This document shows positions 1 through 5,159 of a DNA stretch of 5,159 bases, piece after piece. The notes under the pieces were generated by a model. It saw nothing but the letters and a program-made list of their open reading frames with translations. It was not told the DNA's origin and ran no database searches. The first letter of the stretch is position 1, and the number at the start of each line of letters is the position of its first letter. The stretch comes from an uncultured Erysipelotrichaceae bacterium (GTDB lineage Bacteria > Bacillota_I > Bacilli_A > Erysipelotrichales > Erysipelotrichaceae). Location of the stretch: assembly GCA_902782955.1 (NCBI GenBank), contig CACZPD010000253.1, forward strand, positions 1-5,159, written 5' to 3'. The position numbers were made by a program, and so were the translations under genes.

Positions 1-190
1 ATAAGAAAGCTAACTATATAAAAATCAAGTAGTTCAGATGAAATAGTCTGAAAATAAACGAATTACCTGATGTGCTAGCTGAAGAAGTAATATTTGTTCT
101 TTGAAATTGTGAATATGGATTGTAACAGACGCACTTAAAACAACTGCTGAAGCAGAAGAGATATGCGACAGTGATTGCGGCTTAGGATGC
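1..190. other. Non-coding flank and 3' end of the IS110 element
   Basis: No reading frame of convincing length lies here. The stretch follows the stop of the leftward IS110 transposase, so its right part should be the element's 3' non-coding end and its left part the chromosomal flank. A short inverted repeat, TTCAGA (33-38) with TCTGAA (47-52), could form a weak hairpin. CTGC/GCAG around 144-155 forms a small GNRA-like TGAA tetraloop hairpin. The exact border between element and chromosome cannot be read directly. A candidate is the 7-bp AGTCTGA at 45-51, which recurs at 1656-1662. Confidence 0.5.
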
Positions 191-1378
191 TCAACTCAGC
201 AGAGCCGGATCAAACTGCTGCCCTGTCTTTAACAGGTGGAAGATAACCCTTAAAAGCTTTCTGACGCAGTGTCCATGCGCGCAGCGGTGAGACTTGCCCT
301 GAGAGATCTTGAGGTCATAGTAGTCTTTGAATGCTTTGTTGTTATTGATGACAGGCAGAATGATCTGATACAGGGTCTTGCGGAGATACTTGGATCCTTT
401 CTTAGTGATCTTAGTATGCTGGGCTTTGTACTGCGATGATTCATGGGTAAGAGGCGCTACACCGGCGTATTTGATGATCTGTCTGTGATCTGTGAAGTTG
501 TTGATATCTCCTAATTCGGATAAAATGGATGTACCAGAGAAGTGTGAAATCCCTGGTATGGAAAGGATAGGAGAGTTTATCTGGCGTGAGAACTCTTCTA
601 TTTTTTTGTCGACCTCATCCAGCTGCGCATCGATCAGTACGATCTGGTCGATGAGGTGGCGGATCTGGATAACTTCTGAAACAGAAGAGATACCGATGGA
701 CTTCTTTGCGGCTTCCTTGAGCTTCTCGGCAGTCAGGGATATGCGATTGCCTCTTCCTTTGAACTCAAAGCACTTTCTGAGGCTGCGTATGTCCGCTTTG
801 GCAATGCTTTCCGCACTGCCGTATGACCTGAGCACATTCATGTAGACAACGCCGTATTTCGAATTGAAGAGGCTGTTGTATTCGGGGAATACGATGTCAA
901 TACACTTCTGAAGACGGTTGTAATAGACGTTAAGTTCTTCCTTGAGATCATGATGATGCCTGGTCAGGCAGCGCTGTTCATAAAGATCAAAGCGGTTGAC
1001 TTTGAAGATCCTGTACGGCTTCTTGCCTTTCTTGTTGGAAGATAAGACATCACAGATCGTCAGGGAATCAAGCTTGTCATTCTTGGAGATACTTCCGGAA
1101 GCCTTCCTGGTCAGATCGGTTGTGACCGGATTGATCAGGGCGACGGAATACGCTTTGTCCAGAAGATATTTGAGGAGAGGAAAATGGTAATGGCCGGTAT
1201 CTTCCATGCCGATCAGGACATCCTTTTTCGGATATTTCCGGATACAGGAGATGAACTGTTCGAAGCCTTTCAGATCATTGTTGATCCTGGAAGGCTCGCA
1301 GAGGACTTCACCGTCTTCCTTGCGGACAATGGTAAAGTAGTGGGAGTTCTTCCCGATGTCGATTCCAATCAGAATCAT
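191..1378 (-). CDS. IS110-family transposase (DEDD recombinase)
   Basis: This 395-residue protein is the recombinase of the element. In this family an N-terminal RuvC-like DEDD domain and a C-terminal transposase domain act together with a bridge RNA to join donor and target DNA. The N-terminal domain is visible in IGIDIGK (Asp7), GMEDTGHYH (Glu59) and NDKLD (Asp101 and Asp104). These fit the four acidic residues of the DEDD motif. A mostly helical, probably coiled-coil stretch runs from about 230 to 268. The C-terminal domain follows, with SIPGIS (273-278), the helix-hairpin-helix-like turn, and YAGVAPLTHESSQ (304-316). Ser314 or Ser315 there is the candidate catalytic serine. The frame is full length with no break. 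The start is set by GAAAGGAG, 9 nt upstream of the ATG. Context makes self-contained transposition likely. The assignment to IS110 is firm; the exact subgroup is inferred from the long 5' spacer. Confidence 0.95.
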   Translation of the reverse strand: MILIGIDIGKNSHYFTIVRKEDGEVLCEPSRINNDLKGFEQFISCIRKYPKKDVLIGMEDTGHYHFPLLKYLLDKAYSVALINPVTTDLTRKASGSISKNDKLDSLTICDVLSSNKKGKKPYRIFKVNRFDLYEQRCLTRHHHDLKEELNVYYNRLQKCIDIVFPEYNSLFNSKYGVVYMNVLRSYGSAESIAKADIRSLRKCFEFKGRGNRISLTAEKLKEAAKKSIGISSVSEVIQIRHLIDQIVLIDAQLDEVDKKIEEFSRQINSPILSIPGISHFSGTSILSELGDINNFTDHRQIIKYAGVAPLTHESSQYKAQHTKITKKGSKYLRKTLYQIILPVINNNKAFKDYYDLKISQGKSHRCAHGHCVRKLLRVIFHLLKTGQQFDPALLS

Positions 1379-1387
1379 AAGTAGTGA

Positions 1388-1406
1388 CTCCTTTCAATTG
1401 AGAAAG
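1388..1406 (-). promoter_or_regulatory. Transposase ribosome binding site inside a small hairpin
   Basis: Reading leftward, CTTTC (1406-1402) can pair with GAAAG (1395-1391) across a 6-nt loop. The second arm is part of the strong Shine-Dalgarno GAAAGGAG (1395-1388), which ends 9 nt before the transposase ATG. Pairing would partly mask the ribosome binding site, a plausible way of keeping transposase levels low. The 5-bp stem is weak, so the masking effect is inference. Confidence 0.45.
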
Positions 1407-1590
1407 CATGCGAATGTCCGGACCACAGCACTTATCCAACAAACCCTGGTCAAAGGATACGAATTCAAAAGACTCATCTAACTGATCATTATTTCAGGAT
1501 AAGGCGTGGTGAGATCCTTTCTAAAGTAGTCAAAGCCACAAGGAAGAGTACAAATCCACATTCACACATTTCAATTCTACAGGATTTCAA
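1391..1590 (-). ncRNA. Candidate IS110 bridge RNA
   Basis: This non-coding stretch lies directly upstream of the IS110 transposase and on the same strand, where IS110-subgroup elements encode their bridge RNA. Three stems can be seen in the leftward transcript. The first is 1582-1587 with 1552-1557 (6 bp, 24-nt loop). The second is 1540-1544 with 1515-1519 (5 bp). The third and strongest pairs 1506-1510 with 1422-1426, 1504-1505 with 1428-1429, and 1497-1503 with 1431-1437. That gives 14 pairs interrupted only by bulged bases 1427 and 1430, around a 59-nt loop. The large loop fits a guide-bearing loop. Its 5' side (1486-1471) matches sequence at the element's edge. The extent is approximate because no promoter or RNA end is obvious. 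No terminator precedes the transposase, so the RNA may be processed from, or share, the transposase leader. Confidence 0.5.
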
Positions 1591-1668
1591 AAACCGCAAT
1601 CGGCAACGGTTAATAAAGCCGACAGAAAGGAAAAGGTATATCCTTCTTGAACATCAGTCTGATGAGTC
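1471..1668. repeat. 16-nt inverted match, putative guide (1471-1486) versus junction (1653-1668)
   Basis: The sequence at 1471-1486 and the reverse complement of 1653-1668 agree at 14 of 16 positions: GACTCATC, two mismatches, then ACTGAT. The mismatched bases of the second copy are C1659 and T1660, exactly at the centre of the large hairpin beside the element. A match of this quality between two stretches of about 50-60 nt is unlikely by chance. It may be a bridge-RNA guide and its DNA partner, or two arms of a long-range RNA stem in the leader transcript. The sequence alone does not separate the two. Confidence 0.6.
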
Positions 1669-1682
1669 AATAAGAATATACC
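1635..1682. repeat. 48-nt near-perfect hairpin in front of the HAD operon
   Basis: The dyad centres on T1658. Its outer stem is GGTATAT (1635-1641) with ATATACC (1676-1682). Next come CTT (1643-1645) with AAG (1672-1674), and TTGA (1647-1650) with TCAA (1667-1670). The inner stem is CATCAG/CTGATG (1652-1664). Only single mismatches and one small asymmetric internal loop interrupt it. It ends one base before the ribosome binding site at 1683-1688. It has no U tail in either direction, so it is not an ordinary intrinsic terminator. It could be a leader RNA hairpin controlling translation, a DNA operator, or a palindrome targeted by the IS110 element. A weak promoter-like pair (TTGAAC 1647-1652, TAAGAA 1671-1676) would place the inner dyad between -35 and -10. 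Confidence 0.7.
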
Positions 1683-1694
1683 AGGAAGATATCT

Positions 1695-2312
1695 ATGATA
1701 CGAAATATATTGTTTGACATGGGCAACGTCCTGATCCGGTTCGATCCGGACCGGTTTATGAATGATCTCGGCTGTACAGAAAAGGAAAAGAAGGTCCTGA
1801 TGAGCGAACTGTTCCGCAGTATCGACTGGGTGGCATCAGACCGCGGTCTGATCGATGAAGAAGAACTGATCCGCCGTGCCTGTAAAAGAACAGATCCCTC
1901 CCTGCATGACAAGATCAGGGAACTGGCAAATCACTGGCACCGTAAGCATCTGATGATCGAGGGAAGTGAAGAACTGGTATCCGAGTTATATGAAAACGGA
2001 TATGAACTGTATCTTCTGACCAACGCCGCTCCGGGGCATCATGTCTACTGGCCGCAGTATCCCGTTTCCCGCTATTTTCCGCCGGAACGGGTCTACCTTT
2101 CGGCAGATTACAAATGCATGAAGCCAAGCCCGGATTTCTTTGAAGGGGCTGTAAAACTGTTCTCCCTGAAGAAGGAAGAATGCATATTCATCGATGACAG
2201 CGTACTCAATGCGGAAAGCGCCGTATACTGCGGCATACAGGCGATCGTATTCAATGATGATATTGATGAACTGCGCAGGAAGCTGAAAGCAGCCGGCATA
2301 CGTGTAAAATAG
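1695..2312 (+). CDS. HAD-superfamily phosphatase (subfamily IA, YihX-like)
   Basis: This 205-residue haloacid-dehalogenase-type hydrolase probably dephosphorylates a small phosphorylated metabolite in the cytoplasm. All four HAD motifs are present. Motif I is FDMGNVL with nucleophile Asp8. The usual second Asp is Gly10, as in YihX and the N-terminal domain of soluble epoxide hydrolase. Motif II is LLTN (Thr109), motif III is CMKPSPDFF (Lys143), and motif IV is FIDDS (Asp167, Asp168). The helical cap lies between about residues 15 and 90. The start is supported by AGGAAG at 1683-1688, 6 nt upstream. It is followed after 30 nt by an alpha/beta hydrolase on the same strand, so the two are probably co-transcribed. 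The IS110 element ends just upstream and may have separated the gene from its original promoter. The substrate is unknown: sugar phosphates are the family's commonest, but nothing here points to one. Confidence 0.9.
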   Translation: MIRNILFDMGNVLIRFDPDRFMNDLGCTEKEKKVLMSELFRSIDWVASDRGLIDEEELIRRACKRTDPSLHDKIRELANHWHRKHLMIEGSEELVSELYENGYELYLLTNAAPGHHVYWPQYPVSRYFPPERVYLSADYKCMKPSPDFFEGAVKLFSLKKEECIFIDDSVLNAESAVYCGIQAIVFNDDIDELRRKLKAAGIRVK

Positions 2313-3140: not shown

Positions 3141-4067
3141 TTACGGATTGCATGATCCGCAGGGAATATATCCCTCCTGTATCAGCGTCTCCCTGTCCGC
3201 ATGGACTGCTTTTTTGTTTTTTTCTTTCATGTTTCTGACACCGTCGCAGTCCGGATAATGAAACCGGAGCGTACGGATATTGATAATATAATCATTTTCT
3301 GCCGGTTCGGAACGGGTGATCTCTTCTGTCCTGTAACTGTCTCCCGTCAGGTATTCGATTTCCACGCCGGGCTGTACATTATGACAGAAAACACAGAACT
3401 TAAGCCCTTCCCCATGATCCTCTATGGAAACTGCTTCCAGCAGGACGCCCCTGCACACCAGTTCATCATCTATGAATACCGGTACAGATCTGTACAGAAC
3501 ATGATTTCCTGTACTGCGGATATAATATGCGGTCATATTCTCATATGCCAGCATACCCGCAATATTCATGTACCTTGTCCCTGTAATTAACTGTCTCGCA
3601 TCGTTGTCGCCGCAGAGTTCATAGGCGATCAGATGACATCTGTTGTACAGATATTTATCCTCGATCAGGTCATCATACCGGACTGTTTTCCAGCCGGTCG
3701 GACGGATCATCCCGATGGATCCGCGGGGCCGGTCCGGTATGGTTTCCGGTCCCAGCAGCGCTTCGGCTGTGCCGCATCTTCCTTCTGCATCAAACTCCGA
3801 AAGACGCAGGTATGTTTCCGTTACTTCAGGATATTCCGTAAATGAAGGTTCATTCTCATTGATTACGGTTACAGCTTCCCCTGTATACTCCGGGATCTCC
3901 GGGTTTTCTTCCGGCATTGTCTCCTCATAATGATTTGCGGCCGGCAGGACATTGCTTTTGCCTGTATGCAGATACGGAAGGATCACAAAAAAACACGCTC
4001 CCAGCAATACTGCCGCAGCTATAACCGCTATGCATATCTTTACGATCTTATGAGACTTCCTGCGCAT
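3141..4067 (-). CDS. Membrane-anchored DNA/RNA non-specific endonuclease (EndA/NucA type)
   Basis: This 308-residue protein probably cleaves extracellular DNA or RNA at the cell surface. Lys/Arg residues and a hydrophobic helix (8-33) form an N-terminal anchor. LLGAC (21-25) resembles a lipobox, but the hydrophobic run continues beyond it, so a membrane anchor is preferred. A low-complexity acidic, proline-rich linker spans about 45-82. The nuclease core follows. YNRCH (141-145) is the family variant of the DRGH motif with general-base His145. LITGTRYMN ends in Asn168, the likely Mg-ligand. NHVLYR and the NVQPGVEIEYLTGD region complete the fold. The C-terminal tail has HxxxC (270-274) and CxxC (303-306), a probable zinc knuckle. 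The ATG at 4067 is chosen because AGGAAA lies just before it. The same frame stays open upstream to 4523, but that stretch is antisense to the YvlD gene. The gene is convergent with the hydrolase operon. Confidence 0.9.
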   Translation of the reverse strand: MRRKSHKIVKICIAVIAAAVLLGACFFVILPYLHTGKSNVLPAANHYEETMPEENPEIPEYTGEAVTVINENEPSFTEYPEVTETYLRLSEFDAEGRCGTAEALLGPETIPDRPRGSIGMIRPTGWKTVRYDDLIEDKYLYNRCHLIAYELCGDNDARQLITGTRYMNIAGMLAYENMTAYYIRSTGNHVLYRSVPVFIDDELVCRGVLLEAVSIEDHGEGLKFCVFCHNVQPGVEIEYLTGDSYRTEEITRSEPAENDYIINIRTLRFHYPDCDGVRNMKEKNKKAVHADRETLIQEGYIPCGSCNP

Positions 4068-4091
4068 TCTTTCCTGTTTCCTGCTTTTTAT

Positions 4092-4100
4092 AATATACCA
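4092..4100 (-). promoter_or_regulatory. Extended -10 promoter for the nuclease gene
   Basis: Reading leftward, TGG-TATATT (4100-4092) is an extended -10 element. It would start transcription near 4085, leaving a leader of about 18 nt that still contains the AGGAAA before the nuclease ATG. No good -35 is seen, which extended -10 promoters can tolerate. The assignment rests on position and motif only. Confidence 0.45.
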
Positions 4101-4143
4101 GATTAAAAACCCGGATATGCGTACCAGTCTGCATGAAATATAA

Positions 4144-4187
4144 GATTCATTCAGAATCATTGACTCACATAAAAAAAGTGCTATATT
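4144..4187 (+). promoter_or_regulatory. Sigma-A promoter of the YvlD-like gene with an adjacent dyad
   Basis: TTGACT (4160-4165) and TATATT (4182-4187) are separated by 16 nt, a good housekeeping promoter. The expected start site is at about 4194-4195, on or next to the A of the ATG at 4195. A dyad, GATTC (4144-4148) and GAATC (4154-4158), touches the upstream edge of the -35. It is a possible operator or activator site shared with the divergent nuclease gene. Confidence 0.65.
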
Positions 4188-4194
4188 ACGCTGT

Positions 4195-4536
4195 ATGAAA
4201 AAGCTAATAAGTACATTTATCGCGGATTGTGTCGCGTTATTCATCGCTGACGGTCTGTTCTCGCAGGTAAGTTTTACGAGCAACACCGCAATCGTCGCTG
4301 CAGCTTTCGCACTGGCAGTACTCAATATGTTTGTAAAGCCTGTGCTGAAATTCATATCCCTGCCTGTCACATTCCTGACATTCGGCCTGTTTTCCCTGAT
4401 CATCAACGGTGCTGTCATTCTGTGGGCGTTCAGCCTCGCAGACGGCGCAGGCATTACCGGTATGGGACCGGCGATACTGACATCCTTCGTTGTCAGCATC
4501 GTGACCAGTGTCATATGCGGCAAGGACGATGACTGA
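4195..4536 (+). CDS. YvlD-like membrane protein (phage holin family 4, superfamily IV)
   Basis: This 113-residue integral membrane protein has four predicted helices, at about 5-24, 31-47, 57-81 and 91-108, and a short acidic C-terminus (GKDDD). The family hallmark is the segment from LNMFVKPVL (43-51) through SLPVTFLTFGLF (55-66) into the third helix. The role of this family is not well established. Bacillus YvlD is linked to the cell-envelope stress regulon, and the holin name reflects similarity only, since no phage gene is nearby. No ribosome binding site precedes the ATG. The promoter position explains this by predicting a leaderless mRNA. The gene is divergent from the nuclease with 127 nt between the two starts and is followed by its own terminator, so it is a single-gene transcription unit. 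Confidence 0.85.
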   Translation: MKKLISTFIADCVALFIADGLFSQVSFTSNTAIVAAAFALAVLNMFVKPVLKFISLPVTFLTFGLFSLIINGAVILWAFSLADGAGITGMGPAILTSFVVSIVTSVICGKDDD

Positions 4537-4755: not shown

Positions 4756-5159
4756 TGAACCGCCCCACAAAAATGGGACAGTCATAAAAAAGACCGGGAA
4801 AGGTATGACATCCTGAAGTCAACAGGAGTCATGCCTTTTAGTTTTCTTTGGGGTCTCGCATAGTTATAGAAATGAATGTAATGGTCAACCTTTTGTATCA
4901 GTTCATCATTTGTCTTCGGAAGGTCATACAATTCCAGGTATTCACTTTTCAGATGCCCGAAAAAGTTCTCGCAGCACGCATTATCATAGCAGTTCGCTTT
5001 CCGGGAGTGAGAAACAGTAATACCATGATCATCCAGATACCGGATGTATACGGTATTTGTATACTGAAATCCCTGATCCGAATGAATCACACAGAACCGG
5101 GTTGGATCCCAGTTGTTCCCGATCGCCTTATATACGTTGTTCATCACCAGTTTAAGGTC
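4756..5159 (-). mobile_element. IS3-family insertion sequence, 3' end only
   Basis: The element tip begins with TGAACCGCCCCAC at 4756 and continues through AAAATGGGACAG. This is the TG-starting terminal repeat style of IS3-family elements of the IS150 type, with the CCCA/TGGG mini-stem they often show. The transposase stop lies 26 nt inside the tip. The rest of the element, including orfA, the other repeat and any target duplication, lies beyond the window. The bases just before the tip (ATATA) would be part of the target duplication. Confidence 0.8.
4782..5159 (-). CDS. IS3-family transposase OrfB, C-terminal part
   Basis: The frame is open to the window edge, so the N-terminus, including the first catalytic Asp, is missing. 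About 125 C-terminal residues are visible. HSDQGFQYTN contains the second catalytic Asp (codon 5076-5078). CENFFGHLKSE contains the catalytic Glu (codon 4968-4970). Exactly 35 residues lie between them, the DD(35)E spacing of the IS3 family. The final stretch has the usual YNYARPQRKLKGMTPVDF ending. The GTG and ATG codons at 5142-5147 are internal, because the upstream residues DLKLV continue the family pattern. The visible part has no frameshift, so the copy may be active. It integrates and excises its own element as an RNase H-fold transposase, normally made by frameshift fusion with OrfA. Confidence 0.92.
   Translation of the reverse strand, partial: DLKLVMNNVYKAIGNNWDPTRFCVIHSDQGFQYTNTVYIRYLDDHGITVSHSRKANCYDNACCENFFGHLKSEYLELYDLPKTNDELIQKVDHYIHFYNYARPQRKLKGMTPVDFRMSYLSRSFL

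Follow-up and report, generated by a model that had tools for sequence, protein, structure and literature searches.

We favour, with some reservation, the reading that the left end of an IS110-group insertion sequence from an uncultured Erysipelotrichaceae bacterium encodes an 'anti-guide', a short segment complementary to the donor guide of the element's own bridge RNA, and that the RNA made from the circular form of the element would mask its own donor guide. Comparison of related elements shows that the two segments involved, 1658-1668 and 1471-1483, form a conserved and co-varying complementary pair. The pairing is well supported, and the masking is suggested by start-site prediction and folding. 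The coordinates refer to the window, that is, the whole stretch of 5,159 nt that was analysed, and are collected in Table 1.

Table 1 Features of the window and the evidence used to place them
Feature	Position	Strand	Evidence or remark
IS110-group insertion sequence	8..1684	-	Uninterrupted relative CCATAAGAAAGGAAGATATCTATG in L118; ends compared among copies
CT core copies, one per element end	8-9 and 1683-1684		
Host flanks of the element	1-7 and 1685 onward		
Left donor (LD) AGTTAG at right-end tip	10..15	-	Adjoins core 8-9
-35-like TTGATT, predicted circle-junction promoter	23..28	-	17 bp from -10 when ends are joined
IS110 recombinase/transposase, 395 aa	191..1378	-	Pfam PF01548 (108.1 bits), PF02371 (78.5 bits); relatives IS621 8wt6, ISCro4 9t56
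Bridge RNA body	1410..1567	-	Minimum-energy fold of window sequence; relatives by eye
Bridge RNA closing stem	1558-1565 (GTGAATGT) with 1410-1417 (ACATTCGC)		
RDG ACCAGG in donor-binding loop	1445..1450	-	RNAalifold
3' arm of donor-loop inner stem	1461..1464	-	Pairs with 1472-1475
Donor-binding loop 5' strand AGTTAGATGAGTC	1471..1483	-	LDG AGTTAG and 5' arm of inner stem
Right target guide (RTG) AGAAAGGAT	1514..1522	-	RT:RTG statistics
Left target guide (LTG) CTCTTCCT, target-binding loop	1541..1548	-	LT:LTG statistics
Internal -10-like TAGAAT	1574..1579	-	About 7 nt before bridge RNA body
TTCCTTTCT, complementary to transposase Shine-Dalgarno (1388-1395)	1624..1632	-	By eye
Left-end inverted repeat GGTATATTCTT...AAGGATATACC	1635..1682	-	Local hairpin competing with anti-guide pairing
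Left-end anti-guide GACTCATCAGA	1658..1668	-	Complementary to donor-binding loop 5' strand; predicted +1 at 1668
-10-like TATATT, predicted circle-junction promoter	1675..1680	-	Preceded by TGG (extended -10)
Core and right donor CTGGT	1680..1684	-	Complement of RDG ACCAG; RNAalifold columns 1-5 with 293-297
Host HAD-hydrolase gene, whose Shine-Dalgarno received the element	1695..2312	+	Pfam PF13419/PF00702; relative with uninterrupted site in L118
DNA/RNA non-specific endonuclease domain protein	3141-4172	-	PF13930
Small holin-superfamily-IV-like membrane protein	4195-4536	+	PF04020
Second transposase, 3' part	4782-5159	-	Integrase-core domains (rve_2, rve_3); runs off window

The transposase is distantly related to those of IS621 and ISCro4, and relatives were found at 35 loci with 27-83% identity over the best segment. 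Several features place the element in the IS110 group. First, both Pfam profiles score above cut-off, as for a DEDD transposase with a Transposase_20 domain, judged by the profile matches. Second, a long non-coding left end of 304 nt separates the left core from the start codon of tnp. Third, the bridge RNA has loops matching target and donor, and a putative promoter, recognized from its sequence, spans the joined ends. Fourth, insertion at the dinucleotide core is scarless, as the uninterrupted site in L118 indicates. The original prediction of an IS110 element with a bridge RNA was borne out. In the IS1111 group, in contrast, the RNA-coding end lies downstream of tnp and subterminal inverted repeats of 7-17 bp (as defined in PMC11208160) are present, whereas here the RNA is encoded upstream. 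No Rfam match was obtained at gathering scores, no relative was confirmed among viral contigs, and a search of 392 further genomes of the G010 order gave only the known copy.

Both junctions are fixed by the uninterrupted site in L118, a genome with the same neighbour gene (protein 92% identical); a transposase search of that genome, in which an empty answer means little, found no copy. Same-genome copies at different sites give the left end as ...TTC CT GGTATATT and the right end as ...TATAGTTAG CT. Since the junctions are fixed, the segment 1653-1668 lies inside the element. It had been predicted to mark the element's edge, with the junction near the CT at 1659-1660, but the CT core of the uninterrupted site falls at 1683-1684, 15 bp beyond 1668. 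In copies inserted at unrelated places, too, the segment lies within the element, an outcome that the original prediction itself had named as contrary to it.

The bridge RNA has the target- and donor-binding loop layout known for IS110 elements, as far as described in the accessible portions of PMC11208160 and PMC11208158. As judged from pairing statistics, the target-binding loop (1514-1548) is the one that reads the chromosome: LT:LTG pairing amounts to 7.05 of 9 positions for own partners and 5.59 for permuted ones (0 of 2000 permutations, n=62), and RT:RTG pairing to 6.43 of 8 against 4.98 (0 of 2000, n=56). L078, which had no regex match, was left out of both counts. The LT count further excludes L094, whose insertion point is the tip of another element, and three rows whose left flank is short; the RT count excludes ten rows lacking a usable right flank. 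The donor loop showed no relation to the left flanks (4.21 own vs 4.24 permuted). The loop of the 1422-1510 stem had been proposed as a guide for either the chromosomal target or the element's own end. The second alternative stands, and by sequence comparison the loop is the donor-binding one, reading the ends of the element itself; the first, with 1471-1486 as a chromosomal guide, is rejected, and the left flanks expected to co-vary with it track the other loop. The LDG sequence AGTTAG is identical to that of the right-end tip, as seen when the sequences are compared. RDG:RD pairing carries double changes from CG to AU and from GC to AU, and the donor-loop inner stem is paired in 100% of cells over 34 rows, with double changes in two of its four pairs.

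The segment 1471-1486 (GACTCATCTAACTGAT) and the reverse complement of 1653-1668 (GACTCATCAGACTGAT) are, as originally noted, identical at 14 of 16 positions, with the two mismatches opposite the CT at 1659-1660. Among 300 dinucleotide shuffles of the non-coding stretch (304 nt), 4 contain a non-overlapping inverted match of at least 14 of 16, so the match is modestly unusual and weak on its own. It gains its significance from conservation across 35 distinct elements (the window's included): each has, at a distance of 13-15 nt from the core, an anti-guide that complements the donor guide (LDG) together with the adjoining arm of the loop's inner stem. The conserved part is GACTCATC (1661-1668), the ACTGAT half being, by eye, an extension in the closest relatives of the window's element, whose own anti-guide copy has an A-A mismatch at one position. 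Over the 35 elements, the anti-guide forms 9.94 Watson-Crick pairs of 12 with its own loop and 9.25 with permuted partners (0 of 5000 permutations). Counted loci were only those whose loop fits one fixed pattern; L008 and L042, for which the wrong core had been taken and which carry the segment by eye, were dropped before this count. The decayed L053 is in the permutation, pair-probability and tree counts and out of the later 34-row alignment.

The covariance fold that the original prediction had suggested recovers the helix: with the 34 aligned left ends, RNAalifold pairs columns 19-25 with 251-257 unaided. Counted over 11 pairs in the same alignment, 94.1% of cells are paired, compared with 22-39% in slid registers. 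Double changes occur in six of the 11 pairs, a number reached by one of 500 shuffles, and the covariation score is 0.249 against 0.170 in shuffled alignments (0 of 500). When changes were placed on a FastTree transposase tree, eight same-branch Watson-Crick double changes were found (simulated mean 1.03, maximum 6; 0 of 5000), and registers slid by 1-4 gave 0-1. This tree is rough because some reading frames are broken; L021, L022 and L053, whose frames are broken, sit on long odd branches, and none of the eight changes falls there. Two changes each are in columns 2, 8 and 9 and one each in columns 4 and 5. For columns 2, 4 and 5, which hold four of the eight, the right end offers no counterpart; this argues that the left end follows the sequence of the RNA loop and not that of the LD donor DNA. 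The helix also has exceptions: its outermost pair is unpaired in 7 of 33 rows, L040, L068 and L075 have a C-A mismatch, L086 pairs at 7 of 13 positions, and 21 of the one-sided changes lead to a mismatch. An out-of-sample set comprised nine loci, of which L126 is the same element as L020, and the stretches examined of L128 and L107 had no usable left end. In this set, the loop strand of L131 (AGTTGGATAAGTC) is absent from the earlier rows and is matched over 11 bp by the left end of the same element; in L127 the left end matches the loop over 12 bp (both by eye).

The position of the anti-guide agrees with a predicted promoter. When the ends are joined, a TTG-type hexamer (TTGATT in 21 rows) stands 17 bp from TATATT, TATATA or TATAAT in 31 of 36 rows, these rows having been preselected by a pattern that requires TTG near the tip. 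In the other five, the pattern took the TTGTCT of the tip; by eye, the spacer is 17 in L097, L083 and L094 and 18 in L110. The 7th-8th base after the -10 is GA, AG, AA or AC in all 36 rows, and the predicted start falls within one base of the beginning of the anti-guide. The covariation and this promoter geometry favour pairing within one leftward transcript, which had been named as the competing reading. An internal start is also conceivable, as the alignment column of the internal -10 fits TAnnAT in 30 of 34 elements. In the complementarity of TTCCTTTCT to the transposase Shine-Dalgarno, noticed by eye, both sides are nearly invariant; the conserved TTCCTTTCT also resembles the element's own target site. 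Between the left-end hairpin and the internal -10, the leader (1590-1624, minus strand) has by eye the look of an H-type pseudoknot, with TCGGC..GCCGA interleaved with AACCG..CGGTT, and its first helix changes in step in relatives (ATCAACC/GGTTGAT, CCAGTTT/AAACTGG; by eye).

We propose the following mechanism. The circle-derived RNA would carry, in its first dozen bases, the antisense of its own donor guide, and would fold this 5' end onto the guide. It would then be held off donor DNA until the recombinase or the donor displaces the 5' end. An RNA begun at the internal -10 would have no such 5' end and its donor guide would be free, and in a read-through RNA the complete left-end hairpin would be present, a structure able to sequester the anti-guide. 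Because the bases taken up by the anti-guide helix are those of the LDG and of the inner stem's 5' arm, the two folds are mutually exclusive. In folding predictions for 34 elements, the mean unpaired fraction of the LDG is 0.20 in the +1 transcript, 0.39 when its first 13 nt are shuffled, 0.34 in the read-through RNA and 0.40 with the internal start. Of the 35 elements, 23 have at least one helix pair with a probability above 0.5 in the +1 transcript, and 8 also in the read-through RNA, the latter blurring the switch. For the window's own copy, the predicted masking is weak (LE:DBL pair probability at most 0.14; LDG unpaired 0.43 vs 0.48) because CATCA/TGATG can pair locally; stronger masking is predicted for relatives such as L039 and L040. 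In L082, the LDG is predicted to be closed already without the leader. Since the folds differ by transcript start, the start site may set whether the donor guide is readable. As a tentative extension, to which we give rather less than even credence, the start site would tell the element whether it is a circle or an insert, junction RNA being masked and internal or read-through RNA open. In this scheme, the masked transcript would be the one made in the circle, for which no advantage is evident.

Other explanations of the helix were considered. The junction transcript's 5' end may pair with the loop for folding or stability with no switch involved, for example to protect the 5' end or to hold the RNA until the recombinase binds, with the leader maybe trimmed later. 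The same covariation is expected from such a clamp; however, the bases that the helix covers (LDG and the inner stem's 5' arm) are needed for other pairings in the donor-bound loop known from IS621, and we regard this explanation as unlikely. A further possibility is a site at the DNA level: the donor loop would pair with the top strand of the left-end DNA (RDG with CTGGT, and deeper inside the LDG strand with GACTCATC), and this site, located at the junction promoter, would serve for parking or for repression. The RDG:RD and anti-guide helices are collinear on the same left-end strand, so RNA-DNA pairing would leave the same covariation. Against it, the LDG of IS621 pairs with the bottom strand of LD (PMC11208160), one-sided changes from Watson-Crick pairs lead to G-U in 26 cases and to a mismatch in 21, which suits RNA-RNA pairing without proving it, and the start of the segment coincides with the predicted +1, a position not required of a DNA site. 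We consider such a site improbable.

The complementarity may also be a by-product of local constraints, with the left-end hairpin, the promoter and the inner stem together mimicking it. Both structures exist (the left-end inverted repeat is paired in 90.5% of cells, the inner stem as given above), the two together have a double-change pair count reached by 24 of 500 shuffles, and the raw match, as noted, is modest. However, the double changes on the tree are confined almost wholly to the true register, those in the LDG (columns 8 and 9) lie outside the inner stem, and the later-found L127 and L131 fit; this explanation is largely refuted and very improbable. The reading of 1653-1668 as target or junction with its core at 1659-1660, which has the CT opposite the mismatch in its favour, is rejected as next to impossible given the core position, the flanks tracking the other loop and the segment's place inside the element at unrelated sites.

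The anti-guide was undetected in IS621 and in most tested relatives below about 40% identity. For IS621, in which we assigned the positions of left end and loop strand ourselves, the donor loop was matched at the left end no better than in shuffled sequence (203 of 400). In shuffle tests of 400, the match was not significant in the distant L048, L062, L031, L032, L112 and L116, and in L117 it was reached by 9 of 400 shuffles, in AT-rich sequence and at another position. This per-element test is weak, as the positives W, L039, L108, L104 and L097 gave 7, 0, 2, 4 and 91 of 400. By eye, the segment is absent in L133, L134 and the L136/L140 pair (38-40% identical to L108), and the loop of L134 fits the donor-loop pattern despite the missing segment.

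Compared with known systems, the window's element has several common and several different features. Like it, IS621 and ISCro4 have a homologous recombinase, a long left end upstream of tnp, target- and donor-binding loops, a CT core and a joined-end promoter (as far as covered by the available text of PMC11208160). The transposase has 395 aa here, in contrast to the 328 and 341 aa chains of IS621 and ISCro4. The bridge RNA of IS621 presumably begins close to the left core without a leader, whereas here the RNA body is about 115 nt away from the core, and about 100 nt of this distance belong to the anti-guide-bearing leader from the predicted +1. In ISPpu9, an IS110-family element of Pseudomonas putida, the tnp start was mapped inside the element, position -82 reaching all but two nt. 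As predicted for the window's element, the start is inside the left end and the ribosome site of tnp can be covered by folding of a long 5' leader, but control in ISPpu9 is exerted on translation via the separate small RNAs Asr9 and Ssr9; the covered part of the source (PMC8450116, for all statements on ISPpu9) describes no leader pairing with a donor guide. The seekRNA of ISEc21 and IS1111-type elements likewise comes from a non-coding end, with a longer potential precursor and a shorter abundant form, and no anti-guide is described for them in the portion covered of PMC11187229. Among the titles and abstract openings listed for the bridge RNA, IS110 and seekRNA literature, none describes an anti-guide, with bioRxiv and most subscription papers outside this survey.

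The element's clade also shows a preference in its insertion sites. Of the 62 insertions with enough left flank, 52 have an open frame of 35 codons or more that points away from the element and starts with ATG, GTG or TTG at a distance of 6-22 nt from the core, compared with 479 of 1950 random places in the same flanks; several of the 62 are copies of a single element within one genome. The clade thus appears to insert into Shine-Dalgarno sites, and the window's element is inserted in that of the HAD-hydrolase gene at 1695, antisense to the struck gene (1-9 and 1683-1697). In most of the printed flanks, the core AG preserves AGGA beside the host start codon, so the struck gene may retain a ribosome site. 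The L094 copy stands directly at a sequence like another element's right-end tip (left flank ATATAGTTGTCT), a tandem-like insertion. In addition, a 1563-bp circular 'plasmid' of Monoglobus pectinilyticus (L112, 1-1563) is made up of a single IS110 element (36% identity), the ends of which are separated by CTCACCT, and is either a circle or an assembly of tandem copies.

To our knowledge, how natural elements switch their bridge RNAs off has hardly been studied. Our results carry the warning that conserved complementarity between a guide loop and a left end need not mean a target or a junction, and the clade's preference for ribosome-binding sites is a further trait that can be tested. If the self-masking is true, the co-varying 5' anti-guide would be a built-in lock, testable by point mutations. 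Bridge RNAs are being developed as programmable recombination tools, and an anti-guide could make them conditional.
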